The notes below the pieces were generated by a model, which was not told where the DNA came from, did no database searches, and saw only the letters and a list, made by a program, of their open reading frames with translations. 64,000 bases of DNA from Psilocybe azurescens (lineage: Eukaryota; Basidiomycota; Agaricomycetes; Agaricales; Agrocybaceae). The DNA is taken from assembly GCA_023853785.1 (NCBI GenBank), contig JAJIRX010000590.1, positions 372,001 through 436,000 of the forward strand, written 5' to 3'. The position numbers and the translations under genes were made by a program. Shown here one piece after another: positions 15,035 through 39,489 of the stretch. How positions within the stretch are numbered: the stretch's first letter is position 1; each line of letters starts with the position of its first letter.

Positions 15035-15870
15035 ATGATACTGGAAACCGAAATCTCAGAGTTTGACACGCTTCTCATAGAAGCGTTTGCCGATCACATC
15101 AGCGCGCGAACTGCAATCAACAATATCCACGACCCCTCAGCTCCACCGTGCCACTGGCATCAAAATGTTACCCGCCCCTTTGATGCTGGGTGCGGCATGC
15201 AAGGCATGGTGCAGTCTCCCAGACCACGCCCCGTCTCTGGAAGGATGTGGAACTCAATATGCAATATTTGACCTCTCTATACCGCACGGCTACTATCAAA
15301 TCTGCCGTAGCCAAACAGACCACTCTCTGAACCACAGAAAAGTGGACCTCTTTCAGCAATGGTTATCCAGAACCGGCACGCTGGCCCTTTTGATCTCAAT
15401 CTCCATAACCACCAAACCCAGTACTCTTAGTAGAATGAGGGAGCGGGTAGAGGCTCGACGGCCTATTACCCCTTCGAATGAGCTTCGCGGAGCCTTTGGG
15501 CCCCTCTTTGACACCTTGAACAACTACTGAAGACAATGGAGAATTCTAGACGCTAAGCCACCAAGGGAGCTCTTATCGGACCTCAAAGCATACTCCAAAA
15601 ATGCACCGCTTCTGCAAGAGCTGCACATTGAGCCATCGGATAAGGGTCTAGGCTATGACTATGAGGTAGAACAATTCAGTTGAAGCGTTGAAGCGCAAAA
15701 CTCACTTCATGTCTCTGTAATACACTGTCCCCTCACATCCGTCAAGATTTAGCCGGCACAATCTCACTCAGCTGTCATTGAAAGTATCATTCGAGATCCG
15801 CAGTGAAGATCTCCAAACACTTTTGCGGGAGAAGGAAGATAGAGCAGAATTCCGACCTTGAGGGTGACGA
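15035..15870 (+). pseudogene. Decayed F-box protein gene
   Basis: Frames on the plus strand match the F-box paralogues elsewhere in the window: LETEISEFDTLLIEAFADHI...INNIHDP corresponds to the coiled helix before the F-box, APLMLGAACKAW to the end of the F-box, then LFQQWLSRTG, FGPLFDTLNNY and NAPLLQELHIEPSD to later blocks. The F-box core itself is missing between INNIHDP and APLMLGAA, the frame changes there, and an in-frame stop follows FDTLNNY. The segment ends near 15770-15870 with a C-terminal block (SFEIRSEDLQTLLREKE) that recurs near 25010 and 37070. It lies convergent to the minus-strand F-box gene that follows. Confidence 0.75.
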
Positions 15871-16344
15871 GGGACTAATATACGAAGAAAGTGTGCATTG
15901 TGTGTCAATTATCTATGTCGCAATACTGTGTATACATTCTATTCATGATTCCAGGAATGTGGAAGACTAAATGCTAGATTTTACCTCGAATCCATTACAG
16001 ATAAGATACGTAGATTATCCTCCGATGAACCATATATTCTGCTAAATCACGATGATTCTAGTGTAGAAAGTGTATTCTAAGTTTTCGGAACACCGACTTA
16101 GTCGGATCGATGACCATGCGTACCTTGCGCACTGTGTATAAGTTGGTGATGCTAGGCTGAAAAACAAAAGTTGAAAGCAACTACGACGGTATGATTGCTC
16201 GATCTCTTCGATTTATCAATGCTTAGTGCTCAATTCAATATCATTCACCAAGTATTGCAACATGTCACCAGAAATTTAAATTGAATAACGTAGGGAAAGA
16301 AGATAAACTTCTTTACTCTCTCTGGAGTCAAACTCTGTGCTATC

Positions 16345-18035
16345 CTAAATCCAGCATGGCTGTTTGTGCAACGGGTTAATTAAATCTTCTCTGCCGATAT
16401 CTTTCCACGGTAATAGTAAAGTGACCCCTGCAGCTTGAATGTCCATCAGACGCTTGATCACTGTTTCGTCGATTGACGTCGTGGGTTTGGGATCCCTGCC
16501 TGTAAGAATTCTGAAAATAGAGAGCGGCCGAATTTGTCCTGGAAGAGGCCCAAAGATATCGGGTATGAGGTCCCAGGGAATCTCGTGATCCCTTGGTATG
16601 AAATATGACAAGGATCGCATATTTGTGAGGAATTGCTGCTGCTGGGAACATACACCTTGATCACCCAAGATGGGTGAAGTGTGGACGAGTTGGTTGAAAA
16701 AATTCGATGATCTGGACCCACATTCATTGTATGTAGAACCAATTCCTCAACAGAAGGCAGCGATCGTAGCAGCGTGACCAATGTCGCTATGTCATACCTG
16801 CCGTGGTGGACGCAAAAGGATTTTAGTATACATGATGATCGCTCCAGAAAAGAAACTAGGCCATCAGATGGAAGCGTGGTCCAATGGTTGTCCAGTGTAA
16901 TCGCGAGGCTACTTAATGCGGGCAGGGTAAGCAGATCAAAGATCAAGACAATGCAATTGCCGTCTGTGACTCCAACGCTGAGAAATTCCATAGTTGTGTG
17001 TTGCACAGGAGAATACGGTGTGTGGTTGGTAGGGCCCCGGGTGACATCGCGTAAATCGCAATGTTTCAATCTGGGGGCTTGTTTTAGAACCTCGAGGCAC
17101 TCCAGCACACTGAATGATTTCGCCAACAAATCAGTGAGGTTACTCCAGTCGATATCCACATAAATCAAGCTGAGATGAGCTATGGAAATGACTTGTGGCT
17201 GGGGCTGCCTCGCCGCAATCCTGAATAGTACCTCATAAGGGGGATCGTAGTCGAAGTCCGACGGCATTAGGAACAAGCAGCGTAACAATGGGGTGCCTCT
17301 CGAGTCTCCGGTAAAACGCTGTAGGAGACTGATTGGGCCGACAAGTGCCAAATCTCGCAAGCGACCCGAATGGTTATTGAGAACATCGATGAAAGGCCCA
17401 ATATTGTTTTCAAGCCTTTTCTGATAGAGGATCTTCTCATCTTCGTCACTTTCCATCCCATCATCGGATTCATAAAAGAACGGAGTGACGCCACGCAGCT
17501 GTACGGAGAGGGGTAGTTGTCCTGTTCTTGACATCCATTGCCGAAAGGTGTCCAGCTTGGATTCATTGATCTTGGATAGTCCAATAAACTTATCTCGGAT
17601 TTCCACATTTGCGTAGACTGATGTCCAGAGATGTGGAGTAGCCCATGCAAGCTCTCGCCAAGCTTTACATGTGGCACCCAAATACAACGGGGCCATGATT
17701 TCGCGCCTGTTCGGCTGGCTATTTTGTTCCGTGGCCCATATATTCGGGATGATGGCGAAATTGAAAATGTGTGACGCGATCTCTCGTGGCAGTCGACGAA
17801 GGATTGGGTCGTGCGTTTGGTTGATTTCTGTTTGGATTTGACGGCGCTCTGCCAGCATTTTCTCCAGACTGGCTATCGTCTCGGCTATTTTAGCTTCCAG
17901 CTGCGTGAATTGTGTGCATGGAAGACAGGGCATTCCTTGAACCATATCACATCTACTATAGGCTTTGTCCTGGAGATCGACTTGATTTCGACACACTGCA
18001 CATCCTGCATTTTCGCTATTATTGTTGAACTTCAT
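16345..18035 (-). pseudogene. F-box protein, one-base frameshift near its C-terminus
   Basis: Starts at 18035 (MKFNNNSENAGC), the ATG shared with its paralogue at 39392. Domains in order: a Cys module (CAVC...C...CLPC), a helix (LEAKIAETIASLEKMLAERRQIQ), F-box (HDPILRRLPREIASHIFNFAIIPNIW, LYLGATCKAWRELAWATPHLW), and a long leucine-rich region. The frame breaks near 16696-16704: where the paralogues have A6 followed by TTTCG, this copy has A6 then TTCG, a one-base loss. The 3' remainder continues in another frame as SQQQQFLTNMRSLSY...EIPWDLIPDIFGPLPGQ and stops early (HKQPCWI). Read straight through, the gene would give a protein with an unrelated tail to 16458. Presumed role would be an SCF substrate adaptor. 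Confidence 0.8.
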
Positions 18036-18117
18036 TAATATATGGTTGATCGTGGGTATTATGAGATGCAAGAGGTCAAAGGCCGACTGGTAAAGTTGGA
18101 AGGAAGTTGAAAGAACT

Positions 18118-18720
18118 TGAACGATAAGTCGATAACCGTTTCAAACGAGGGTGCCATCACAACGACTCAGATGTTAACGGTCCTACGGTTCCACGTGACC
18201 TCACCTCTTCCGGGCTCCGAGTCAACGGCCCTCAACATTCAACAGCGAACGGCCCACGTCTGGGAATTTGGTACCGGCCCCTTCATCCACACTCTTTAAT
18301 GCTCTCGACCGTCAGCAAACCTTCTTCGTCGCCGAATCGTGTGGCATTGTGCATCACTTTTAGTCTCAATAACACTGCCCACCACTCATCGACCCTCAAG
18401 GGCCGTCAATGTGGAGGTTTTCGTATCTATTTTGCACTTCAGGACCAGCTAAGCACCTGTAATTACAACAGCATCAATACCGCCAAAGAAATCAACCACT
18501 GGATTGGGAAATTGAGACATACTGAAGTGAGGGGGGTATAGAAGACGGTGATGATCGCGTTGTTTGACGCGGGAACGACGCCCAAGAGGGAGAATCAACG
18601 AAGGTACGAATGACACGCAACATTTAGACTTAGGGCCGGTATTCATTGGTTGTGGACGTGGTGATTATGATTATGCAGATCAACAATTACTGGCGTACCC
18701 AAGATGTTGATTTATCTTAT
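18118..18720. repeat. Upstream segment shared by the F-box copies
   Basis: This upstream region of the F-box gene recurs with moderate divergence at 27476-28000 (shared AACGATAAGTCGATAACCG, AAGGGCCGTCAATGTGGAGG, TCAGGACCAGCTAAGCACC). A more diverged part is present at 35280-35500. It marks the extent of the segmental duplication and probably contains the promoter. Confidence 0.7.
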
Positions 18721-20147
18721 TGTAACGAGTTACGAACTAGAGTGAATTGCCGTCGCTGGCGGCTCACGCCTTGCTTGCCAAAAATAGGTGCAGGATTATC
18801 TTTCGATCACATGCTGTAAAGATGTTAAAATGTTGTGATGACCATGACTTATAAAAGAATTTTGACCATCCCAAAACCCTTGCAAGCAAGGAAATTCTAC
18901 TTAGATCCATACTATTTATAGAGCTCGAGCCTATTCTGCATTTTTTGGCAGCTCACCACTGCCGAACAGCTTGGTACTAGTAGGCATGGAAACGTATAAA
19001 GAGATTGGCAGGAACAAGGAGAAGATAGTTTGTACGGCAACTTGTCAATTAACCATTGACCGCCTCTGTTAACCTATTGTGCACCTACGTTAATCCAGCC
19101 CGCTCCTCTCACGACTCCATCGCGCGTATACCGATGATAAACTCGTTAATTCAAGTTCAAATTCAATGCAGACCGCTCTTTTGACTTCGCAAATGCTTCG
19201 AAACACCAGGCAGTATGTTTGTCTGAAACTTTTTTGGGCTTGTTCTCTGATCGCAGACTGGATCTCGCACTTTGCAGTGGGTGTGTAGTTCACTGAATGT
19301 GATTTGACTGACAGTGCTCATACGTCGCTTACTATTGTTTTTCATTTTGGTGTATATTCCTACGAGTGGCTTCCATTTAATACTTGGACCTGTCCCGGAT
19401 TGAACACATGCGGTACAAGGCGCATGCTGCGGAAGCCCGTCGATGTGAATAATCCACAAGTACATCCACTATTCTTTCTAGCAACGTTGAAGTAGTCGAG
19501 GAAATTGCAGACTGGGGTGTCCTTTTCTACTATATGCTGCTGTAGGCTGATGTTTTATATTACATGGAATAGTTCCCTGGGCATTCATTGAGCTTCATAA
19601 CGAATCACCAGCACCTCTTGTTTACCAGATGGATTGGGATCCCGTATTCTCGTAATTTAAAGCTGTACCGTGAAATGCACCAAGTAAGAGTGCCCCGAAT
19701 ACTACCCGAATCGAACCCTTAAAATAAGTTTGACTTGACAGCCCCTACTCACGATCTGCCACATGGAATTCGTGAGTATGGGAGTATTTGAATGTGGGCA
19801 GAGGCTAACGGCAAGCAATTTCCTTTTCCTTTTCTCCTCCAGCCTGCAACATTTCTCCATCGTCATGAGCAATACTGCGAATTTCTTTGCTGGTGCACGG
19901 GAATTCGTCATTAAGGATAGTGTAGCGAATACGTGATCTTTTCGTAACTCGTTGATCTTATCTTTCCGCATTATTATCTTATCTCTCATCTTTAATCCTC
20001 CCTTTGTATCTTGTACCATACTTCGTCATTATTCTTCATTCTTCATTCTCCTCCTTTACTCCTTGACTCCTTTACTCTATGTCATACAATTGTAATTACT
20101 CCTCCTCCGCAGTAGCTACCCCTCTAGCTCCATAGTCCACCTCGATG
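18721..20147. other. Intergenic, no gene recognised
   Basis: No frame here persuades me. A stretch near 19492-19560 (TAGTCGAGGAAATTGCAGAC) is similar to 22613-22690, which begins duplicated block A. The last 150 bases are the promoter region of the ULD gene. Confidence 0.35.
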
Positions 20148-20335: not shown

Positions 20336-22518
20336 ATGACCAATCCCACTGTGAGCTTTAACCCAATTGATACAGTTTCTTGCTTAGAGTCATTCCTGCA
20401 GATTATCCACAACACCTACATCTACCAAGTTGGGAGTAGCGAACACGAAAGGATCGGCCCAATTGCAGCCACCCGGAGGATAGTCTCTACATCTTCCCCA
20501 GTTACCTCTGTTGTACCAAGATCATTTGGTGATATTGTCACTACCATTAATATCGTCCAGTCAATCTACAATGCCCTCAGTGACAGCGCGGGATCATCCT
20601 CCCTCTATATGTCCCTAATTGAGGAGCTTCGTTCGTTCGAAAAAGTCTTATTCAAAGTTGACCAGCTCCTTACGACCACTCCTGTGGATGATTCTGTCCA
20701 CCAAGCTGTTGAGATATAAACCGCCGACTGTCTCAAGATGCTCAGAACATTCTGGGAGCGAATTGAGCGGTATCAGGGTGTTCTTGGTTTAAGGTGGAGC
20801 CTCATTTGGCCCAAAGTCACCTGGGCTATATACAAGGCGTCGGAGATTAAGAAGTTCAGACGGATTCTTTGCCAACATCAACAACGTATTGGGATGTTCT
20901 TGAGTGGATTACAAGCGTAAGTCTCATTTGAATTGATATGGCTGATATACTGATGGGTTCGTGATTATAGCGCCATTGTTAGTTCGGGTGTAGGTGTGAT
21001 GAGGCAGGATTTAACGTCAATCAAGCAGCAAGTGGCTGAGATTCGTACCAATCAGCAGCGACCGTTCATAGGCGTAGGATATGGTCTCGAAAATGCGTTG
21101 GTTCTTATAAATGCATTCGGAGAGCGCATAACATTGTCTATGGAGTTTTGCTGGTCACAGACGGTGCGTACATCAATTCTATTTGTGGCCGCTGACCACA
21201 AACTTATTTGACCGCTAGAAACTTCATGAAACGCTGATTGGCCTCTATAATGGGAAGATTGGCCAAGACTATGTTGCGCGGCTAGATTACAGCATTTCAA
21301 CAGAGGACGGCCTGCAGGTGGCTACGTCCAGTAACTGGGGAACTGTTGTAGAACAAGGGAAAGTGATCATCATGAGCATGATTGTGAAGAGGATAGCACT
21401 CAAGCGGATTGGTCATCAGAAGGAAACATGCCCTCGTTGCTATAGAACAAAGGTTGGTGTTATGCGAGACAACGGATGGCTGAAGTGGTACGTAATTACA
21501 ATGTTACCATCTTTTCATATGATTACTCATGCGTTCCAGTCGACGCTGCGAACGGCGCTTTGGCTGGAATGAAAAAACCTATTCGCTTGTTCCACCTTCG
21601 CTGGACCCGTCTATTACTGATTTTCGAAATATTCGTGTTGTGCCAGTGAAACGGGTAAAGAGAAGCGTCCTTGATTTATGGATATGGAGAACTCTGATTA
21701 TTCCATATTGCTTCTGCATTTACAGGGCGTACGTGGCTTTGTTCATTTAGCACTTCAATTTCTCTGACAAATCTATCTCTCATCTACAGTTTGTACGTTA
21801 ACTTGTTAATTTAGCACTTACAGCTCCTCTGACAATAGCGTCACACATTCCCAGCATGTGCGTAAATCGGCTGACCCAATACTGAAGTACTGACCGCCCA
21901 CTCTGACAAACGTCATCGCACATAACCAGAATGTGCGTGGACTTGTTGACTCAGCAGTGAAGTACTGACAGCCTGCTCTAATCATTCTATTGCGTATTTA
22001 CAGCCTGTATGTGGACTTCAATGCTAATTCAATGGCAGCCCCAGCTGACTCTCCAACAATTTCATTGCACATTTACAGATGGTGCGTGAAATTCGCCACT
22101 AACTATACTCTCTGACAAGTAGTTGTGCATTTACAGCCAGTACGTGAATTCATTTACTCCGTACTTACCGCTCCTCTGACAGTCACATCGCGTATTTACA
22201 GGCTGTACGTGAGCTCGCTAATTTTGCACTAACCACATAGCCCTCTGACAGTTCCGTTGTGCATTTACAGCCAGTAAGTAAGGCTGTTGATTCAACGCAG
22301 ATTACTTGTTGACTACTCAAACGCTCTCATTTTATTGAACTCCAGAGAGTGCGTTTTTCTCAAATGTTTCTAGACATATACTCTAATCACTGATTGGATC
22401 ACAGTGGGTATGTAATCCATCAAATACGATTCTTCGCCTTTTACTCTCTCTTTCTGTATGTTCTCTTTAGGCTGCGAATAAATTTTCTGCTCACTCTTCG
22501 ACACCTACTCTAGAATAA
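20336..22518 (+). CDS. Ubiquitin-like (ULD) domain protein with microexon tail; in-frame stop
   Basis: A fungal N-terminal helical domain (FGDIVTTINIVQSIYNALSD, LIEELRSFEKVLFKVDQLL, LRTFWERIERYQ, FRRILCQHQQRIGMFLSGLQ) is followed by a ubiquitin-like ULD domain (VLINAFGERITLSMEFCWS, LDYSISTEDGLQV) and a zinc-ribbon-like pair CPRC...CRRC. This architecture is common in agaricomycetes, sometimes on STAND-like proteins; function unknown. Main exons: 20336-20916, 20971-21163, 21219-21487, 21540-21654. They are followed by eleven 3 nt exons and a terminal exon 22471-22518 ending in TAA. If intron 21655-21725 is not spliced, the frame instead runs to 21750. An in-frame TAA at 20717-20719 interrupts the conserved N-terminal domain. 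A 54 nt intron removing it can be drawn, but it would also delete conserved residues, so a nonsense mutation or sequence error is likelier. The gene may be a pseudogene. Confidence 0.75.
21655..22470 (+). other. Array of 12 mini-introns separated by 11 single-codon exons
   Basis: Acceptor (mostly TTACAG), three bases, then a donor (GTACGTG, GTGCGTG, GTATGT or GTAAGT) recur eleven times. Exons: 21726-21728 GGC, 21790-21792 TTT, 21855-21857 CAT, 21930-21932 AAT, 22004-22006 CCT, 22079-22081 ATG, 22137-22139 CCA, 22202-22204 GCT, 22271-22273 CCA, 22346-22348 AGA, 22405-22407 TGG. Intron lengths are 71, 61, 62, 72, 71, 72, 55, 62, 66, 72, 56 and 63 nt, in the range of the other introns in this window. 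Most carry CTGAC or CTAAT at branch-point distance. All introns are phase 0. Read as exons they add eleven residues between VPVKR and AANKFSAHSSTPTLE. Whether they are spliced in or skipped cannot be told from DNA. Confidence 0.7.
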
Positions 22519-22689
22519 ACCCACACAGACACGGGCAGAAGCCGAAGAAGTCAGTCGGTGTGAGTTGTCTATATTCTTATCCTCTTTGTTTGGCTAACAA
22601 TTTTGAATGTCAATAGTCGAGGAAATTACTGACTGAGGTGCCCTTTTTCATGCTGTATGCTGCCGTGGATTGATGTGTTATATTACCTA

Positions 22690-23830
22690 GCACCGTTCTC
22701 GGACACTTTTCAGGTTCGGCAAATGGAACTGACCTTACGACTGGCGTTGTTTATTCAACTTCAAGTAATAGATTATACGATTCACGACCTATTTAAAACA
22801 CTGCCATCCTTTACTGTCCATCCCAAACGACGAACGAAGTCATTGTCAATCTCTGTCATATGGAAACCAGGACAGTTATGCTCCCAGGACTCAGAACAAA
22901 TACGGGCCGGATCACATGCCGGCTGATGATATGCAGTATTTCCACAATCTAATTCTAGGACAAATAAAATCTGGTATCTCGCAATTTTGAATTGTAATAC
23001 TATTCCGCCATTGGCTCTGTCGAACTTCTATACTTGGTGATCACCGATACTTATGTATTCCTACACAACACGATATGTGGTCAAGGTAGCCGCTTTATGC
23101 ACGCTGGCAAGTTTGATACTAGGCGACAAGCATTGAACCAAATTAGCATGTGTAGAGAACTGGCTGGAATCTATTTTGTATCTTCCACGCTAGCCCAGGA
23201 CGTAGATCACCCATGTAACGCGGTCCAAGAGCAGCTAGCTTAATTTGAATGGGTCTGAAGACTGAGACACATAGCCTAAGTGAGACGAACATAAGTAAAC
23301 TAGGCCCATCCCTGAGTGTAGCGGTCGTTGAAGCCGACTCCAGTTCGAATACAAGCACATCAACCAGAGCATTCTGCCATTCTTTCGCGCTTTTTTCTTG
23401 CTGAAAAAGTGAAACCATCTGGTATCCTTATACTTATATGATATATATGTATGCTAGAAGCTATCTTACGCAGTTATTGTTATAAAATGCGTCATACACT
23501 GGCCGGTTCAAGCATCTTGTGCAAGCCGTAGTACCATGAACGGTGTCGGCGTGAATTGATTTAATGCGGAACATCACTGCTCCGGCACTTCTTGAATCCC
23601 GGGTCACTTTTGCTGATGTGGTTTATTACAGGATGTAGTATTAGAAGTAAAAACGGTTCAAAATAACGCTGCGTAAAGAAAACATAGACCATAGATACTC
23701 TTCTCGGTTCTATAATCAAAATATCCCGGTTCAAAACCATTGTTAACTCCTCGTACGCAAAATAGATGTCTAGAATCAAGAATTAAACCCTGGAGGACAA
23801 CTAAAACTATTTGTCCTCCATCGGTCTGTC
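22690..23830. repeat. Segmental duplication A, 5' part (conserved unknown frames)
   Basis: Aligned by eye with 32430-33575. Both copies keep frames reading RLALFIQ.QVIDYTIHDL..KTLPSFTVHPKRR and, after a frame change, a frame containing RFMHAGKFD and FVSSTLAQ. These look like remnants of a real protein that I cannot place; frame breaks in both copies suggest a pseudogene. Sequence around 22613-22690 also resembles 19492-19560. Confidence 0.65.
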
Positions 23831-24060
23831 TATATAATGCATATGATACTTCAACTTGCTCAACAGTGATCTACTCAAAGTTTCGCTTTACAATCAGGTG
23901 AGCAATCTCTCCTCCAGTCGATCACAATACTTACCGCCGCTCGAGTATCATCAGCTTACACGCATCCTATCCGAGTCCAAACAACGGGAACAGCAATGGG
24001 CGCTTGTACGGTTATTATTAATATTGCCGGGAGCAGAACTGAATCTGATATGAGGGCGGG
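23831..24060 (+). pseudogene. Deleted copy of the Gly/Asn-rich secreted repeat gene
   Basis: The promoter (TATATAA at 23831-23837) and the 5' UTR donor (CAGGTGAGC near 23897) are almost identical to those of the intact gene at 33576-34608. Directly after the shared CGCATCCTATCC the sequence jumps to the end of a repeat unit (NNGNSNGRLYGYY) and a TAA, then rejoins the copy B downstream sequence. The intron acceptor, start codon, signal peptide and about five of six repeats are missing, so no product is expected. Confidence 0.8.
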
Positions 24061-24567: not shown

Positions 24568-24599
24568 TGGCAGAACCCGAGACCCCACTTTACAAATCT

Positions 24600-25480
24600 C
24601 GCAACCTCGACATCCAAATAGCATGATCGACAACGAGGAGCTGCTCGCGCTTCTATGGGAGCCTCAGGCTTTCGAGTCATTGTCAATATAACATTTGTTT
24701 GCTCACCCTGAAGTCTTGTTTATCACCTTCGCGCACATGGCCGCCATCCCAGGATGGACCAGCTTCGCAGCCACAGTTTCTACCAAACCCCGGAATTCTC
24801 ATTTATTCGGTATACCAAAGATGCTGCAATGATATCACTCCGTGGAAGATTCTACCCGATATTATTGGCCCACTCTCTGAATGCAGATGACCATTCAAGG
24901 ACCTATGGATCGAGCCAAGCAAAAGGGAACTCGCTTGTGGAATAAAAATCTTGAAACATAGGATGTTGTTCAAAAACTTAAAGACGTTATCGACACCGGT
25001 TATTAATTGAGAGTATCATTCGAGATCTTTAGTGAAAATCTCCAAACATTCCTGCGGCAGAAGGAACATAGCACGGAATTGCGACCTTGAGGATAATGGG
25101 GGCTAGTATACGAAGAAAACGTGCACTACGTGTCAATTATCACTATCTATATCGCAATACTGTGTATACCTTATCTTCAGGATTGCAGGAATGTACAAGA
25201 CTAAAGTATAAGAAATATTAGATTTTACTTCGAATCCATTACAGATATTATCTTCCGATAAACTGTGTTTTCTGCCAAAAATCACAATAACTCTAGTGTA
25301 GAAAGTGTGTTCGAAATTTTCGAAACACCTATTTAGTCGGATCGATAACCATGCGTACCTTGCGCACTGCGCATAAGTTGGTGATGCAATGCTGATAAAC
25401 AGAGTTGAAAGCAACGACGACGGTATGATAGCTCGATCTCTTCGATTTATCAATGCTTAGTGCTCATTTCAATATCATTC
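24600..25480 (+). pseudogene. Decayed F-box 3' end, copy A
   Basis: Plus-strand frames keep traces of the F-box C-terminal region, for example TPWKILPDIIGPLSECR, which corresponds to EIPWDLIPDIFGPLPGQ of the intact paralogue. They are interrupted by stops and frame changes. The 3' part (25005-25480) is shared with 15765-16260 and 37065-37590. It lies convergent to the intact minus-strand F-box gene. Confidence 0.65.
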
Positions 25481-25546
25481 ACAAAGTATTGCAGCATGTC
25501 ACCAGGAATTTAAATTGAATAACGTAGGGAAAGAAGGCGAACTCCA

Positions 25547-27298
25547 TTACCACTCTCCGGAGTCAAACTTTGAGCTACCCCATATCGATGATAGCAACTT
25601 TTTGTGCAATGGGTTAATTAAATCTTCTCTGCCGATATCTTTCCATGGTAACAGTAAAGTGACCCCTGCAGCCCGAATGTCCATCAGACGCTTGATCACT
25701 GCTTCGTCGATTGACGCCGTACGTTTGCGACGCCAGTCTGTAAGAATTCTGAAAACAGAGAGCGGCCGGCTTTGTCCTGGAAGAGGCCCAAAGATATCGG
25801 GTATGAGGTCCCAGGGAATCTCGTGATCCTCTGATATGATATATGAAAAGGATCGCATATTTGTGAGGAATTGCTGCTGCTGGGAACCTACATCTTCGTC
25901 ATCCAAGATGGGTGAAGTGTGGACGAGTTGGCTGAAAAAGCTACGATGATCCTGACCCTCATTCAGCAGCGAATGTAGAACCAATTCTTCAACAGAAGGC
26001 AGCGATCGTAGCAGCGTGACCAATGTCGATGTGTCATACCTGCCGTGGTGGATGTGAAAGGATTTTAATATGCATGATGATCGTTCCAGAAATGAAGCTA
26101 GGTCGTCACAGGGGATCGCGGTCCATTGGCTATCTAGTGTAATCGCGAAGCTGCTTAACGCGGGTAGGGTAAGCTTGGCCAAGATCAAGACAATGCAATT
26201 GTGGACGTCGGCTCCAAAGCTGAGAAATTCCATAGTTGTGTGTTGCACAAGAGGATATGGTGTGTAATCGGTAGGGTCTCGGTCGACATAGCGTAAATCG
26301 CAATGTTTCAATCTGGGGGCTTGTTTTAGAACCTCGAGGCACTCCAGCACACTGAACGATTCCGCCAACAAATCAGTGAGGTTACTCCAGTCGACCTCCA
26401 CACAAATCAACCTGAGATAAGACATGGAAACGACTTGTGGCTGAGGCTGCCTCGCAGCAATACTGAATAGTACCTTATCGGGGGAATAGTAGTTAAACTC
26501 CGATGGCGTTAGGAACAAGCAGCGTAACAATGGGGTGCCTCTCGAGTCTCCGTTAACACGCTGTAGGAAACTGACAGGGCATAAAAGTGCCAAATCTTGC
26601 AAGCGGCCCGAATGATTGTTGAGAACATCGATGAAAGGCCCAATATTGTTTTCAAGCCTTTTCTGATAGAAGATCTTCATCTCATCTTCGTCATTTTCTG
26701 TCTCATCATCGGATTCGTCATACCCGTAGACTGTGATGCCACGCAGCTGTATGGAGAGGGGTAGTTGTCTTGTTCTTGATATCCATTGCAGAAAGGTGTC
26801 CAGCTTGGATTCATTAATTGTGGACAGTCCAACAAAATCCGCTCGGACGGCCACATTTGCATAGACCGATGTCCAGAGACGTGGAGTAGCCCATGCAAGC
26901 TCTCGCCAAGCTTTACATACAGCACCCAAATACAACGGGGCCATGATTTCGCGCTTGCTTGGCCGTCTATGTTCTCTCGCGGCCCATATATTCGGGATGA
27001 TGGCGAAATTGAAAATGAGTGACACGATCTCTCGTGGCAGTCGACGAAGGATTGGGTCATGCGTTTGGTTGATTTCTGTTTGGATTTGACGGCGCTCTGC
27101 TAGCATCTTCTCCAGACTGGATATCGTCTCGGCTATTTTAGCTTCCAGCTGCATGAATTGTGTACATGGAGGACAGGGCCTTCCTTCAATCATATCACAT
27201 CGACTATAAGCTTTGTCCTGGTGATAGACTTGATTCTGGCACAATATACATCCTAATGGGAGAATAACTGCATTTTCGGCATTGTTGTTGAACTCCAT
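25547..27298 (-). CDS. F-box protein with Cys-rich N-terminus (intact copy)
   Basis: A single open frame of 583 codons from the ATG at 27298. In order: a Cys module (residues about 17-50; CILC...C...CPPC), a helix (LEAKIAETISSLEKMLAERR), F-box (HDPILRRLPREIVSLIFNFAIIPNIW, LYLGAVCKAWRELAWATPRLW), an acidic stretch (ESDDETENDEDE), then a leucine-rich region with SNLTDLLAESFSVLECLEVLKQ, RSLPSVEELVLHSLL and EIPWDLIPDIFGPLPGQSRP. This is the only one of the three close paralogues without a frameshift, and it serves as the reference for lesions in the others. Likely an SCF ubiquitin-ligase adaptor; substrate unknown. The Cys module probably binds zinc (inference). Confidence 0.85.
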   Translation of the reverse strand: MEFNNNAENAVILPLGCILCQNQVYHQDKAYSRCDMIEGRPCPPCTQFMQLEAKIAETISSLEKMLAERRQIQTEINQTHDPILRRLPREIVSLIFNFAIIPNIWAAREHRRPSKREIMAPLYLGAVCKAWRELAWATPRLWTSVYANVAVRADFVGLSTINESKLDTFLQWISRTRQLPLSIQLRGITVYGYDESDDETENDEDEMKIFYQKRLENNIGPFIDVLNNHSGRLQDLALLCPVSFLQRVNGDSRGTPLLRCLFLTPSEFNYYSPDKVLFSIAARQPQPQVVSMSYLRLICVEVDWSNLTDLLAESFSVLECLEVLKQAPRLKHCDLRYVDRDPTDYTPYPLVQHTTMEFLSFGADVHNCIVLILAKLTLPALSSFAITLDSQWTAIPCDDLASFLERSSCILKSFHIHHGRYDTSTLVTLLRSLPSVEELVLHSLLNEGQDHRSFFSQLVHTSPILDDEDVGSQQQQFLTNMRSFSYIISEDHEIPWDLIPDIFGPLPGQSRPLSVFRILTDWRRKRTASIDEAVIKRLMDIRAAGVTLLLPWKDIGREDLINPLHKKLLSSIWGSSKFDSGEW

Positions 27299-28010
27299 TT
27301 ATCTATGTAGGACAAGATGTGTTCAATCTCGTGCGGATGGATCGTGGATCGGTTTGTATACATACCTACATGCAGCGTAGAAGCTTCTGTACTGATCTCG
27401 GAGCGAAATTGAGATACAGGTTGATCGTGGGTATTAGGAGACACAAGAGGTCAAAGGCTGACTGGAAAGAAGTTGAACGATAAGTCGATAACCGTTTCAA
27501 ACGCTCAAACGAGGGTGCAATGACTCAGTTGACGATCCCACAATTTCACGTGACACGCCGAACGGCCTCTGGGAATTTGGCACCGGCCCCTTTATCCACC
27601 CTCTTTAACGCTCTCGACCGTCAGTAAACATTCTTCGTCACCGAATCGTGTGGCAATGTGCATTGCTTTCGGTCTCCAACAACACCGCCCACCACCCATC
27701 GACTATAAAGGGCCGTCAATGTGGAGGTTTTCGTATCTATCTTGCACTTCAGGACCAGCTAAGCACCTGGACTCACAGCAGCACCAATATCACGAAGAAA
27801 TTAACCACTAGATTGGAATCTGAGATGTCCAGAACAGAAGGGGTATAGAGGATGATGGTGGTCTCATTGTTTGATGCGGGAACGATGCCCAAGAGGGAGA
27901 ATCAACGAAGGCACGAATGACACGCGACATGACGGAGGGCGGGTATTCATCGGTTGTGGACGTGATAATTATGAATATGCAGATCGACAATTACTGGCTT
28001 ACTCGAGATC
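27299..28010. repeat. Upstream segment of F-box copy A
   Basis: The part 27476-28000 matches 18118-18700. A stretch of about 110 bases next to the ATG (27305-27418) has no counterpart before the copies at 18035 and 39392, so it is an insertion here or a loss in both others. Confidence 0.6.
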
Positions 28011-32307: not shown

Positions 32308-32429
32308 TAGACCTGTACAAAACGAGCAAGGGCCTGTTCGGCAACCGAACATCTGGTGTTCATCGCATCATCATCATATGATATTCCCCAGCGTGTTCGA
32401 CGTGCCAATGGCACTGAGGGTCTCCATGT

Positions 32430-33575
32430 TCTCAGACAATTTTCAGGTTCGACAAATGCAACTGAATTTACGGTTGGCGTTGTTTATTCAATTTCAAGTA
32501 ATAGATCATACGATTCACGACCTATTTAAAACACTGCCATCCTTTACTGTCCATCCCAAACGACGAATGAAGTCTTTGTCAATCTCTGTCAAGGAGAGTT
32601 ATGCTCCCAGGACTCAGAACAAATACGGGCCGGATCACATGCCGGCTGATGATGTAGTATTTCCACAATCTAATTCTAGGACAAATGAAATCTGGTATCT
32701 CGCAATTTTGAATTGTAAAACTATTCTGCCATTGGCTCCGTCGAAGTTCTATACTTGGTGATCACCGATACTTATCTATTCCTAGACAACACGATATGTG
32801 ATCAAGGTAGTCGCTTTATGCACGCTGGCAAGTTTGATACTAGTCGACAAGCATGGAACCAAATTAGCCTGTGTAGAGGACTGGCTGGAATCCATTTCGT
32901 ATCTTCCACGTTAGCCCAGTACGTAGATCACTCAACATAGCACTTACAACTTTTTCATATACATGTAACGCGGTCTAAGAGCAGCTAGCTTAATTTAAAT
33001 AGCTCTGAAGACTGAGACACATAGCCTAAGTAAGATGTTCCGTGTTTAGAACGAACATAAGTAAACTAGGCCGGCCCATCCCTGAGTGTAGCGGTCGTCG
33101 AAGCCGACGCTAGCTCGAATACAAGCACATCAACCAGAGCATTCTCCCATTCCTTCGCGCTTTTTCAAAGTGAAATCATCTGGTATGCTAGAAGCTATCT
33201 TACGCAGTTATTGTTGTCAAAGGCGTCATACATCCGGTTCAAGCATCTTGTGGAAACCGTAGTACCATGAACGGTGTCGACTATGCGTTTAGGCGTGAAT
33301 TGATTCAATGTGGAACACCACTGCTCCGGCACTTCTTGAGTCCCGGGTCACTTTTGCTGATGTGGTTTACTACAGGATGTAGTATTAGAAGTAAAAATGG
33401 TTCAAAATAATGCTGCGTAAAGAAAACATAGACCATAGATACTCTTCTCGTTTCTATAATCAAAATATCCCGGTTTAGAACCATTATTAACTCCTCGTAC
33501 GCAAAATGGATCTCTAGAATCAAGAATTAAACCCTAGAGGACAACTAAAAACTATTTGTCCTCCATGGGTCTGTC
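32430..33575. repeat. Segmental duplication B, 5' part
   Basis: Counterpart of 22700-23830, beginning at CAGGTTCG near 32445. Frames at 32378-32761 (RLALFIQFQVIDHTIHDLFK) and 32755-32940 are the same unidentified remnants as in copy A, with small indels between copies. No intact gene. Confidence 0.65.
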
Positions 33576-33582
33576 TATATAA
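33576..33582 (+). promoter_or_regulatory. TATA box of the Gly/Asn-rich repeat gene
   Basis: TATATAA is followed after about 60 bases by a 5' UTR intron: donor CAG/GTGAGC at 33643 and a T-rich acceptor ending at 33783, seven bases before the ATG at 33790. The same box and donor survive in the broken copy A. Confidence 0.6.
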
Positions 33583-33789
33583 TGCATATGATACTTCAAC
33601 TTGCTCAACAGTGATCTACTCAAAGTTTCGCTTTACAATCAGGTGAGCAATCTCTCCTCCAGTCGATCACAATACTTACCGCCGCTCGAGTATCATCAGC
33701 TTACACGCATCCTATCCAATCAGTATGCGCATTAAGACTTGCATAAACACAGTGTAATCCTATCTGAAACTTTTTTTTACCAGTCAAAA

Positions 33790-34608
33790 ATGTTTCCTTC
33801 TTCATCTCTAACTGCCTTCCTCGTCTCTGTGCTCATCGCGCAGGCGGTTGCATTACCCCAATTTGGAAGCGGCAACAACGGCAACACCAACTCTGGCAAT
33901 GGAGGAAGTAACAGCGGCAACGGCGTCGGGGGAACCAACAACGGCAACAACAACGGGCGGTTGTATGGTTATTACCGTCGCGAGCCACAATTTGGAAACG
34001 ACAATAACGGGAACACCAACTCTGGCAATGGAGGAAGCAACAGCGGCAACGGCGTCGGGGGAACCAACAACGGTAACAGCAACGGGCGGTTGTATGGTTA
34101 TTACCGTCGCGAGCCACAATTTGGAAGCGGCAATAACGGGAACACTAACTCTGGAAACGGAGGAAGCTACAGTGGCAACGGCAGCGGCGGCTCCTACAAC
34201 GGCAACAACAACGGTGGTTTGTATTATCGCGAGCCGGAGCCGCAGTTCGGGTATGGCAATAACGGGAACACTAACTCTGGAAACGGAGGAAGCTACAGTG
34301 GCAATGGCAGCGGTGGCTCCTACAACGGCAACAACAACGGCGGTTTCTACTACCGCGAGCCCGAGCCGCAGTTCGGGAGTGGCAATAACGGGAACACTAA
34401 CTCAGGAAACGGCGGCAGCGGCAGCGGCAATGGCTATGGGGGCTCGTACAATGGCAACAACAACGGAGGCCTGTACTACCGCGAACCGGAGCCACAGTTT
34501 GGAGACAACAACAACGGAAACACCAACTCTGGGAACGGAGGCAGCAACAGTGGAAATGGCTCGGGAGGAACCAACAACGGCAACAGCAACGGGGGCTTTT
34601 ACTATTGA
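33790..34608 (+). CDS. Secreted Gly/Asn-rich tandem-repeat protein
   Basis: 272 aa in one exon. A signal peptide (MFPSSSLTAFLVSVLIAQA, cleavage probably near AVA/LPQ) is followed by six units of about 40-45 residues rich in Gly, Asn and Ser (QFG-NNGNTNSGNGGS then a Tyr-rich end). Units 1 and 2 end in YYRREP with a dibasic RR; units 3-5 end in YYREPEP with a single Arg; the last ends FYY at the stop. The repeats contain no Cys. Possible roles: cell-wall or matrix protein, or a Kex2-processed precursor releasing repeated peptides. DNA repeat units have diverged mostly at synonymous sites, suggesting the frame was kept. The ATG at 33739 in the same frame lies inside the 5' UTR intron, so 33790 was chosen. 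Confidence 0.8.
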   Translation: MFPSSSLTAFLVSVLIAQAVALPQFGSGNNGNTNSGNGGSNSGNGVGGTNNGNNNGRLYGYYRREPQFGNDNNGNTNSGNGGSNSGNGVGGTNNGNSNGRLYGYYRREPQFGSGNNGNTNSGNGGSYSGNGSGGSYNGNNNGGLYYREPEPQFGYGNNGNTNSGNGGSYSGNGSGGSYNGNNNGGFYYREPEPQFGSGNNGNTNSGNGGSGSGNGYGGSYNGNNNGGLYYREPEPQFGDNNNGNTNSGNGGSNSGNGSGGTNNGNSNGGFYY

Positions 34609-35294: not shown

Positions 35295-36640
35295 TTTTAG
35301 TTTTCAACAACACCACCCACTGCTCAACGACCATCAAAGGTCGTCAACGGCGAAGCTTGTGGCCTATATCTTACACATCAAGACCAGCTATAGCATTTGG
35401 ATTCACGATATCATCGACTTCGTGCCGAACTCTCGAGAATACAACCACTTTAGGACCTATATCATACTATCAACGAACACTATCGATAGCAAACATGGCG
35501 TCTGCATTGGGATAGAAACAACCGGCGTTGAATATCGCTCAATTGGATGTGCAACCCGTCGACGATAGCCCCAATCGATCCCACCTTCTGGTCAGTCGGT
35601 TCTGTCGTGCCTGCTGCTTTTTCTGACCGTTGTATTTCTGTGCAGATGTAAAAGTTAGCTGGATGGATGCGTGATCTTCTGCTGCTCACCGTGTTTTCAG
35701 GGCGTCGACGACGGTCGCCCAAACCGTTCCCGGTGTTCATGCTTTTTTCATCGTGACAAAAGCATGTGCTCGTGCTGAAGGGAGATCTAGGTCTTGGTAC
35801 GAAGCGACTGGATATAGATTGAGTGTACGAGAAGCGGGGGTCTAGGCCGGCCTGAAGATGCGGCAAACGGTGAGCAAAAGGTGCACTATAGTGATGAGAG
35901 TACAACTGACACCATTCACCTGTGTATGTAGTTTCATTTCCCTCCCATTCAGCTTCATCGTCCTCCGTCCTCCAAGTCAATCGTCTGTTCATGGTCGCTG
36001 CCCCTTTGCCGACCGACACGACGCATGATGGAGGAGCTATGGCAGGGCACTTATTGGTGAGTTATACGCGATCCCGACCGTTTGTGGATGTGCCTGACCG
36101 ACATCCACAGGTGTATTGTCTTTCTTGAAGATGCATCCACTCTCTGCGGACTTGGGGACAAATCTTCATTGAAAGATACGACGACTGGCTGGACGCGACG
36201 TGCTATACCTCTTCACAGATGTACATCCTCCCACTTTGCTTCCACCCACCTACGACAATCCCTACCTCAACGAACGCGAAATAAGAGAGTATAGCACAGC
36301 GTAGATGGCCGAAGAACATACCTGACGCCTCATGGCCGTGTTCTCGGTGCTCTCATCTGGTGCCTTGCGTATAAATGAATGCCTTGATGAGATAGAAAGT
36401 TGAGGAGAGAATATTGACCATGATGCCGACTGGAGTGTTTTTAGAGGGCTGAGTAGCGACATTTGAAGGGGAGGAAGGGTACAAGTGGCGACATTTTGAG
36501 AAGATGGTCGCTTCCAAAAAGAGCGCGGTAGTCAGAGCAAATGAGATCGAGCGACTACCACGGTCACACGTGACATCACCTCATCCGAACCAAGAATCCA
36601 GATTCAATTAATATCCGAGTCAGAACCCGAGACCCCGCTT
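35295..36640. other. Insertion-like stretch in block B, no gene recognised
   Basis: About 1.3 kb present in block B but absent at the matching junction in block A (24567). Positions 35280-35500 resemble the F-box upstream segment at 18343-18540. I see no reliable coding pattern in the remainder. Confidence 0.45.
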
Positions 36641-36649
36641 TACGAATCT

Positions 36650-37590
36650 CGCAACCTCGACATCCAAATAGCATGATCGACAACGAGGAGCTGCTCACGC
36701 TTCTATGGGAGCTTCAGGCCCTCGAGTTATTGTCAATAGAACATTTGTTCGCGCACCTTGAAGCCTTATTGATCACCCTCGCACACATGGTCACCATCCC
36801 AGGGTGAACCAGCTTCGCAGCCAGAGTTTCTTCCAAAACTCGGAATTCTCGTTTATTCGGAAGACCAAAGAAACCGCAATGATATCACTCCGTGGAAGAT
36901 TCTACCCGATATTATTGGCCCACTCTCTGAATACAGGTGAGCATTAAAGGGCATATGGATCGAGCCGAGCAAAAGGGAACCTGCTTGTGGAACCAAAATC
37001 TTGAAATATAAAGACATCAGTAAGAATATTTTTCAACGACTTAAAGACGTTATCGACACCGGTTATTAATTGAGAGTACCATTCGAGATCTTTAGTGAAA
37101 ATCTCCAAACACTTTTGCGGGAGAAGGAAAATAGAGCAGAATTCCGATCAAGTGATAGTGATGAGGGGCTAATATACGAAGAAAGTGTGCTTTATGTGTC
37201 AATTATCACCATCTATATCGCAATACTGTGTATACATTCTTTTCAGGATTGCAGGAATGTACAAGACTAAAGTATAAGAAATATTAAATTTTACTTCGAA
37301 TCCATTACAGACAAGATACATAGATTATCCTCAGATGAACTGTGTTCTTTGCCAAAATCACGACGATTCTAGTGTAGAAAGTGTATTCAAAGTTTTTGGA
37401 ACACACATCTAGTCGGATCGATGACTATGCGTACCTTGTGCACCGCGTATATGTTGGTGATGCAAGGCTGAAAACAAAAACTGAAAGTAACGACAACAGT
37501 ATGAATAGCTCGATCTCTTTGATTTATCAATGCTTAATGCTCAATTCAATATCATTCGCGAGGTATTGCGACATGTCACCAGGAATTTAA
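36650..37590 (+). pseudogene. Decayed F-box 3' end, copy B
   Basis: Counterpart of 24600-25480, with the same interrupted plus-strand frames and the same C-terminal block (PFEIFSENLQTLLREKENRAEF at 37079-37144). It lies convergent to the frameshifted F-box gene at 37624-39392. Confidence 0.65.
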
Positions 37591-37623
37591 ATTGAATAAC
37601 GTAGGGAAGGAAGGCGAACTCCA

Positions 37624-39392
37624 TTACCACTCTCCGGAGTCAAACTTTGAGCTACCCCATATCGAAGATAGCAGCTGTCTGTGCAACGGGGTAATTAATT
37701 GTTTTCTGCCGATATCTTCCCACGGCAACAGTAAAGTGACCCCTGCTGCCCGAATGTCCATCAGATGCTTGATCACTGCTTTGTCGATTGCCGTGCGTTT
37801 GGGACCCCCGCCTGTACGAATCCTGAAAACAGAGAGCGGCCGACTTTGTCCTGGAAGAGGCCCAAAGATATCGGGTATGAGGTCCCAGGGAATCTCGTAA
37901 TCCCAGTGAATCTCAGGACGCCAGGGAATCTCGTGATTCCCTTGTATGAAATATGAGAAGGATCGCATATTTGGGAGGAGTTGTTGCTGCTGGGAACCTA
38001 TATCGTCATCATCCAAGATGGGTGAAGTGTGGACAAGTTGGCTGAAAAAATTTCGATGATCCTGACCTTTACGCATCTGTGAATGCAAAACGAATTCTTC
38101 AACAGAAGGCAGAGATCGTAGCAGCGGGATCAATTCCGCTATATCATACCTGCCGTGGTGGATGTAAAAGGATTTTAGTATGCATGATGATCGCTCCAGA
38201 AAAAAAGCTAGGGTATCACATGGGAGCGTGGTCCATTCGCTCTGTAGTGTAATCGCGAGGCTGCTTAATGCGGGCAGAGTAAGTTTGTCAAAGATCAAGG
38301 CAGTGCGATCTTCGTCGACGGATCCAACACTCAGAAATTCGATAGTTGCGTGTTGCACGGGAGGATGCAGTGTGTGGTCGGTAGAGCCTCGGTCGACATA
38401 GCGAAAATCGCAACGTTTCAATCTGGGGGTGTGTTTTAGAACCTCGAGGCACTCCAGCACAGTGAATGATTTCGCCAACAAATCAGTGAGGTTACTCCAG
38501 TCGATATCCACAGAAATCAACGAAAGCGAGATGTTATCGATGGAAATGACTTGTGGCTGAGGCTGCCTTGCAGCAATACTGAATAGTACCTTATCGGGGG
38601 ATAGTAGTTGAGGCCTGTTGGCGCTAGGAACAAGCAGCGTAACAATGGGGTGCCTCTCGAGTCTCCGGTAAAACGCTGCAGGAGACTGATTGGGCAGACA
38701 AGTGCCAAATCTCGCAAGAGATCCGAATGGTTATTGAGAGTGTCGATGAAAGGCCCAAAATTCTTTTCAAAATTTTGCCGAATGAGGATATTCATCTCAT
38801 GTTCTTCATACTCTGTTGCATCATGGCATGCGTAATAGGCCGGGGTGCCACACAGCTGTACGGAGAGAGGTAGTTGTCCTGTTCTTGATATCCATTGCCG
38901 AAAGATGTCCAGCTTGGATTCATTAATCGTGGACAGTCCAGTAGAATTATCTTGGACGGCCACATATGCATAGACTGATGTCCAGAGATGTGGAGTAGCC
39001 CATGCAAGCTCTCGCCAAGCTTTACATACAGCACCCAAATCCAACGGGGCCATGATTTCGCGCTTGCTCAGCTGGCTATGTTTTTCCGTGGCCCATATAT
39101 TCGGGATGATGGCGAAATTGAAAATGAGTGAAGCGATCTCTGGTGGCAGTCGACGTAGGATTGGGTCGTGCGTTTGGTTGATTTCTGTTTGGATTTGACG
39201 GCGCTCCGCTAGCATCCTCTCCAGACTGGCTATCGTCTCGGCTATTTTGGCTTCCAGCTGCATGAATTGGGTACATGGGAGACAAGGCGTTCCTTCAACC
39301 ATATCACATCTACTATAGGCTTTGTCCTGGAGATCGACTTGATTCTGACACACTGCACATCCTGCATTTTCACTATTATTGTTGAACTTCAT
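37624..39392 (-). pseudogene. F-box protein, one-base frameshift in the middle
   Basis: Starts at 39392 (MKFNNNSENAGC). The Cys module, helix and F-box (HDPILRRLPPEIASLIFNF, LDLGAVCKAWRELAWATPHLW) are as in its paralogues. The frame breaks near 38600: copy A has GGGGGAATAG where this copy has GGGGGATAG. The second half reads on in the next frame from VDIDWSNLTDLLAKSF to SSKFDSGEW. Near 37881-37945 the copy also has a 36-base in-frame gain giving three successive EI(P/H)W motifs where the paralogues have one. Either a recent pseudogene or two adjacent frames created by a sequencing error. Confidence 0.8.
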
Positions 39393-39489
39393 TTACATAT
39401 GGTTGATCGTGGATATTAGGAGACGCTAGAGGTCAAACGCTGACTGGTAAAGGTGGAAGGAGGTTGAAAGAAGTTGAACGATAAGCCGT

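Follow-up and report, generated by a model that had tools for sequence, protein, structure and literature searches.

How a gene could end in a long run of exons that are each a single codon is the question raised by a 64,000-nt stretch of Psilocybe azurescens DNA (here called the window). Between 21655 and 22518 on its plus strand, directly behind the last larger exon of a gene with a ULD_2 domain, twelve intron-like stretches of 55-72 nt alternate with eleven 3-nt "exons", and an in-frame terminal exon closes the array. The preliminary description had proposed eleven consecutive acceptor-NNN-donor units behind the ULD exon, and all eleven lie where it had placed them; all twelve introns fall within the 55-72 nt that it gave (in order 71, 61, 62, 72, 71, 72, 55, 62, 66, 72, 56 and 63 nt), and the terminal exon at 22471-22518 is, as proposed, in frame and ends in TAA. 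Its GTRNGT donor consensus fits eleven donors but not the first (21655, GTAAAG). As it also held, the frame is kept whichever single-codon unit drops out. The features of the gene, its array and its upstream flank are these:

19033..19499, plus strand: decayed duplicate of the end of the array together with its 3' flank, 5' of the gene; aligns to 22166-22620
20336..20916, plus strand: probable first coding exon or exons of the ULD_2 gene, from reading frames; contains an in-frame TAA
20717..20719, plus strand: in-frame TAA in this upstream exon in the present assembly; the records P0001 and P0010 have an amino acid there
20971..21163, plus strand: coding exon 2, start of the ULD_2 domain, from reading frames; the spliced product matches PF22893 (9.4e-13)
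21219..21487, plus strand: coding exon 3, ULD_2 domain; PF22893 at E 5e-7 for 21219-21485 alone
21540..21654, plus strand: coding exon 4, ending ..RVVPVKR; zinc-ribbon-like, with CPRC..CRRC across exons 3 and 4
21655..21725, plus strand: array intron 1, 71 nt, donor GTAAAG
21726..21728, plus strand: single-codon exon 1, GGC
21790..21792, plus strand: single-codon exon 2, TTT
21855..21857, plus strand: single-codon exon 3, CAT
21930..21932, plus strand: single-codon exon 4, AAT
22004..22006, plus strand: single-codon exon 5, CCT
22079..22081, plus strand: single-codon exon 6, ATG
22137..22139, plus strand: single-codon exon 7, CCA
22202..22204, plus strand: single-codon exon 8, GCT
22271..22273, plus strand: single-codon exon 9, CCA
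22346..22348, plus strand: single-codon exon 10, AGA
22405..22407, plus strand: single-codon exon 11, TGG
22408..22470, plus strand: last array intron, 63 nt, acceptor TAG at 22468-22470
22471..22518, plus strand: terminal exon AANKFSAHSSTPTLE-stop, in phase; the DNA reads GCTGCGAATAAA...TAA

The predicted spliced product of the window gene matches ULD_2 (PF22893) in Pfam with 48.6 bits against a cut-off of 24.5 (E 9.4e-13); its zinc ribbon was named by eye, the Pfam profile Zn_ribbon_IS1595 reaching only 13.6 bits against 25.4. A genome-wide search with the ULD_2 profile returned only the window's exon among the matches listed, presumably owing to the introns that interrupt the domain, and when that exon was used as a protein query it matched itself alone; neither search gives the size of the family. 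No relative of the ULD exon was confirmed on viral contigs. Elsewhere in the window, a 126-bp tandem repeat (33862-34592, 5.8 copies, 84% matches) has one frame rich in Asn and Gly codons, and long dispersed repeats about 85% identical (15777-18131, 24571-27307 and 36621-39488; 22695-23972 and 32428-33717) are perhaps mobile elements.

The array is not a chance product, as had been argued from its order. The pattern YAG-NNN-GTRNGT occurs at 17 sites on the plus strand of the window, against 2.6 +/- 1.6 under a Markov model and 2 on the minus strand. When a generic splice-site score was used to link units into chains, only the array formed a chain of at least four units on either strand, scoring 120 (a chain counted as 12 units, of which the twelfth, at 22555, is spurious), while 100 second-order Markov shuffles of the window gave a maximum of 5 units and 18.5 points. 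Exon lengths of 1, 2, 4-6, 8, 9 and 12 gave no chain of more than four units in the window, and length 7 gave a weaker echo (65 points, 10 units), since most donors have a second GT after them. The units are diverged tandem copies with a mutual identity of 60-73%; given this relatedness, the array grew by duplication, and its eleven repeats of the pattern do not count as independent events. The donor GT, donor positions 5-6 and the last three bases of the acceptor are invariant among them while intron columns deviate by 28% on average, an invariance that is partly circular because the units were selected by those same sites.

For the window copy in particular, it may be asked whether the gene and its array are relics, decaying after an inactivation and carrying a pattern inherited from a working ancestor. 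The in-frame TAA at 20717-20719 would fit such a history, as would the decayed upstream copy, whose alignment with 22166-22620 scores 71 where 30 shuffles reached at most 33.5. All eleven window units nevertheless retain consensus sites, whereas only two of the four units in the aligned stretch of the upstream copy have survived (those at 19207 and 19275 still read YAG-NNN-GTRNGT), and the TAA is absent from other records of the gene. It may be a null allele or an assembly error, with intact copies existing elsewhere, and we consider decay of the window copy unlikely. The TAA had gone unmentioned in the preliminary description. The gene is also flanked by two copies of its 3' flank, with 73-bp repeats at 19493-19563 and 22614-22686.

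The deposited relatives bear on how such genes have been annotated. The best database match to the window gene is the Psilocybe cyanescens protein P0001, with a listed identity of 100% across the 257 query residues, the sequence itself showing one difference near the end; the next-best matches are Galerina, Flammula and Pholiota proteins. The tail of P0001 is a read-through of array intron 1 to a TAG at 21748-21750. Exons this short are often missed by annotation, and no spliced array tail was recognisable in the related database proteins. If the array is what it appears to be, annotation misses such tails: among seven deposited P. cyanescens ULD proteins, read-through takes four (P0001 and P0012-P0014) into the array, two (P0015 and P0016) stop short of it and one is untraced. 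The end of P0011 (CVT25_015206) after ..IRQQ had no match in the seven loci examined on contig C19; for the cluster of arrays on that contig, three deposited relatives enter the array by read-through. The tail of a deposited Galerina protein matches what the window gives when array intron 1 is read through into codon 1 and on into the following donor (SDNSILLLHFQ-H-VR against SDYSILLLHLQ-G-VR), with the single codon changed and with a score of 48 that none of 500 shuffles reached (at most 44); the read-through frame could truly be coding in both species. Donor read-through was also considered for the Flammula and Pholiota tails, which end near HVR, but their matches did not rise above shuffles (69 and 141 of the 500 scored as high).

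A strict pattern matched the window gene alone (4 matches, 0 in the control), as if the array were unique to it, but a looser pattern found others. Across the 70.4-Mb genome, two-unit patterns gave 29, 920, 42 and 134 matches with A, T, G and C, respectively, before the first CAG, against 3, 10, 0 and 1 for the reversed control, that is, 1,125 adjacent-unit matches against 14, counting CAG acceptors and GTRNGT donors only. A stricter TTCAG/GTRAG-unit pattern, which overlaps these counts, gave 514 matches against 0 reversed. The window and the fetched loci comprise 645 single codons in 19 array pieces, all of them, 3-nt exon counts included, known here from the DNA pattern alone. Chains were taken on the array strand and kept with at least 8 units and a score of at least 80 in a first set and with at least 6 units in a later one; units with introns outside 45-85 nt were dropped in one comparison and outside 45-90 nt in that of L032-L035, and a locus with a two-unit match only (L028) and those with short matches (L001-L016) were left out. 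Seventeen of the 18 pieces outside the window have at least 20 codons; the other one, with 12, is the second piece of a gene on contig C761.

Eight of the arrays, with 20 to 52 codons each, were found in the fetched loci of contig C19. They belong to a cluster at C19:165000-361000 that lies, among the matches listed, entirely on the minus strand and, where read, behind ULD_2-like genes. Two of these genes match the ULD_2 profile (L018, 1.3e-8, 35.3 bits; L020, 3e-8, 34.2 bits), those before L017 and L022 are ULD_2-like by eye, and the paralogues L018 and L022 have, by eye, a comparable in-phase terminal exon (..MDPTPSL and ..MDPTPIL, then a stop). Other arrays follow other genes. That of contig C715 (L024) matches MMR_HSR1, a GTPase profile, with 22.7 bits, just above the cut-off of 21.9, and NACHT with 14.2 bits, below the cut-off of 26.7. 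Array flanks on C660, C139, C157 and C281 resemble this GTPase-like gene by eye, the arrays of C454 and C438 have the same NNT codon pattern as the GTPase-like set, and C153 has one array in an unnamed gene. The largest number of single codons in one gene is found on C761 (L023, L029 and L030; C761:4001-24000), where 122 + 12 single codons, with Glu, Lys, Arg and Leu abundant among the residues, stretch over 9 kb behind the opening exon MDETLETQIQRLEEK (this first exon and the terminal one were placed by eye); the predicted spliced product had no homologue among 5.8 billion proteins.

Several properties of the triplets distinguish codons from spacers. In L017-L028 and 1.3 kb of the window, 427 junctions on the array strand are 3 nt long, against 1-11 for each other length from 0 to 30, a count to be read knowing that L017-L028 had been picked with a 3-nt pattern; the opposite strand has 10 junctions at length 3 and 0-11 elsewhere. 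Only one of the 645 codons in the 19 arrays is a stop, where 10.8 were expected and none of 2000 position shuffles gave one or fewer, and this single TAA is at a weak unit that the array finder can bypass. The ratio of NAA to NAG is 111:9 in 15 arrays, as opposed to 95:110 in 15 presumed ordinary exon stretches (p 9e-19), with no comparable shift in the other A/G-ending codon pairs (40:36 against 136:105). This avoidance of NAG points to splicing, since NAG would place an AG beside the donor and thereby create a second, false acceptor.

A further property concerns codon position. Seven arrays have T almost without exception as the third base (NNT); in them, positions 1-2 deviate from the consensus in 182 of 376 cases while position 3 does so in 10 of 188 (p 2e-28; units within one array share ancestry, so that here and in the other tests the counts depend on one another and the p-values come out too low). 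Four of these arrays (L032 on C157, L033 on C281, L034 on C454 and L035 on C438) have near-identical introns between NNT codons that differ unit by unit: introns deviate at 229 of 6849 bases (3.3%), position 3 at 4 of 105 (3.8%) and positions 1-2 at 100 of 210 (47.6%), with L034 alone showing 18 of 46 at positions 1-2 against 5 of 1490 in introns. In L024, L025 and L026, introns deviate by 7.5, 12.8 and 7.5% and position 3 by 10, 7 and 4%. Deviations were counted column by column, gapped pairwise alignment inflating the within-array identities of diverged arrays. Variable first and second positions beside a stable third are what one would expect of change that is judged by the amino acid encoded. 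The signal at position 3 is absent from the C19 and C761 arrays, in which all three positions vary. The NNT pattern, taken alone, is reminiscent of diversity-generating retroelements, systems marked by a reverse transcriptase with a template repeat. Helical periodicity of residue order, considered as a possible proof that neighbouring units encode neighbouring residues, was not significant across 15 arrays (best p 0.027; C761 p 0.24). By these measures of base composition and change, the array triplets behave as codons, and such codon-level signatures need the triplets to be translated.

These properties weigh on the suggestion that the array is a non-coding minisatellite derived from one intron, with splice-like ends and spacer triplets, and that the gene simply ends by read-through at 21748-21750. 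Its units are indeed tandem copies, P0001 ends exactly at that TAG, and repeats multiply chance patterns, as seen in the antisense chains of C19 (up to 13 units and a score of up to 44.5, mostly of one residue). However, sense chains of at least 20 units score 225-1271 and the window array 115-120, several distinct intron families share the one layout, and the avoidance of stops and of NAG, the conservation of position 3 relative to positions 1-2 and the single length of 3 nt all argue against a non-coding repeat, which we regard as quite improbable.

Comparison of paralogues shows arrays differing in length by whole units. L018 and L019 have 52 and 27 units, 25 whole units apart, with 26 of 27 aligned codons in agreement and introns 98.3% identical; in a second young pair 18 of 19 codons are kept and introns are 93.9% identical. 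By simple comparison, neither close pair has a clear excess of codon over intron conservation. In older paralogues introns are still 85-88% identical and codons are near-random (5 of 28 kept in L025/L026, 6 of 45 in L018/L022). Identity between adjacent codons was considered as a sign of simple unit duplication; in a test of 17 arrays at 8 lags, with uncorrected p-values, it was enriched at lag 1 in L032 only (p 0.002). In the same uncorrected test, C761 had an excess of identical codons at lags 4 and 6 (p 0.008 and 0.002), a mild one at 3 and 7 and a deficit at 1 and 2, and single lags reached p 0.02-0.05 in a few other arrays.

Four of the seven NNT arrays contain units broken at the codon junction, eight in all: one in L024 (near 3784), four in L026 (near 137 and three more), one in L032 (near 877) and two in L033. 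Six have 0, 1 or 2 nt between acceptor and donor and two have a damaged acceptor, a pattern that hints at a process centred on the junction. Broken units would need to be skipped, and a splice from 21655 to 22470 retains the frame, both of which would suit removal of the array whole as one long intron, or its skipping in blocks, with the units as decoys or regulators, but this is very improbable in view of codon-level signatures that need triplet translation.

We think it quite probable that single-codon exons, arrayed in this part of the window and spliced codon by codon, make up the tail of a ULD_2 gene. In fungi, introns this short are recognised by intron definition, so a 3-nt exon would need no exon definition. 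In the proposed scheme, the short introns would be removed one after another, every splice adding one codon, to give a full window product reading ..VPVKR-GFHNPMPAPRW-AANKFSAHSSTPTLE. Three bases leave hardly any room for neighbouring splices to be assembled simultaneously, which makes stepwise removal likely, and skipping of units is likely too; each skipped unit would cost one residue and leave the frame intact. Near-identical introns would permit unequal exchange, through which arrays would gain and lose codons without a frameshift, and the codons would meanwhile diversify at the amino-acid level. Given this variability and the precedent of NACHT-ANK proteins in truffle, the ULD_2 and GTPase-like proteins likely use the array tail as a rapidly varying recognition or interaction tail.

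The remaining puzzle, and the most interesting part, is the hypervariability of first and second bases lying between almost identical introns. The plain reading is strong diversifying selection on the codons combined with concerted evolution of the introns. A codon-by-codon diversity generator, in which recombination homogenises the introns and a local process beyond mutation and selection renews the two bases after the acceptor, is a speculative alternative that we doubt. If tails are indeed spliced codon by codon, the hypervariable protein tails of a mushroom are put together from dozens of one-codon exons, and recombination and exon skipping would add, drop or swap single residues without a frameshift. 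Such genes would also be a stress test for models of how the spliceosome handles serial 3-nt exons.

Several known systems share parts of this architecture. Schistosome micro-exon genes have many short symmetrical exons and variable products, with exons mostly longer than one codon, and differ from the Psilocybe arrays in proteins and organisms. For fungi, Iotti et al. 2012 is said to be the source on which later papers draw for the splicing of microexons in Tuber melanosporum. In the passages of those papers that concern them, the NACHT-ANK genes, or NLRs, of this truffle undergo alternative splicing of multiple to tens of codon-sized (3-bp) microexons (PMC4986451, PMC3689799, PMC10197012). 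The preliminary description had held the architecture to be undescribed, which does not stand: it has been described at least once before, in truffle. Among fungal NLRs, Podospora HNWD and others are characterised by concerted evolution of repeats, few codons under diversifying selection and length polymorphism (PMC4986451). The Psilocybe arrays have in common with HNWD this concerted evolution with diversification; the repeat of the latter, as it is described there, is protein (WD, ANK, TPR), whereas that of the Psilocybe arrays consists of an intron and a single codon. Families of near-identical introns dispersed among unrelated genes are described in fungi as introner-like elements (PMC4457414). 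They share near-identical introns with the Psilocybe arrays, whose introns instead lie head to tail with one codon between.

The closest likeness is to the Tuber nank family, at least as the cited passages present it: multiple to tens of 3-bp exons (eleven in the window, by DNA pattern) in a filamentous fungus and in an expanded, fast-evolving protein family. The truffle genes described there are NACHT-ANK genes of an ascomycete for which alternative splicing is reported, whereas the present ones, read from DNA alone, are the ULD_2, GTPase-like and other genes of a basidiomycete; Pfam gives ULD_2 for the window gene, L018 and L020, and NACHT stays below its cut-off in L024. Searches of open-licence PMC papers brought up, among the matches listed, no description of arrays like these from a basidiomycete, and as far as those searches reach the phylum, the gene families, the array size and the codon-position pattern are new. 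Set beside Tuber nank, the Psilocybe arrays have up to 122+12 codons per gene, near-identical introns in some arrays and hypervariable positions 1-2; if they are spliced as proposed, the truffle case would be no curiosity but a strategy found in two fungal phyla and several protein families.
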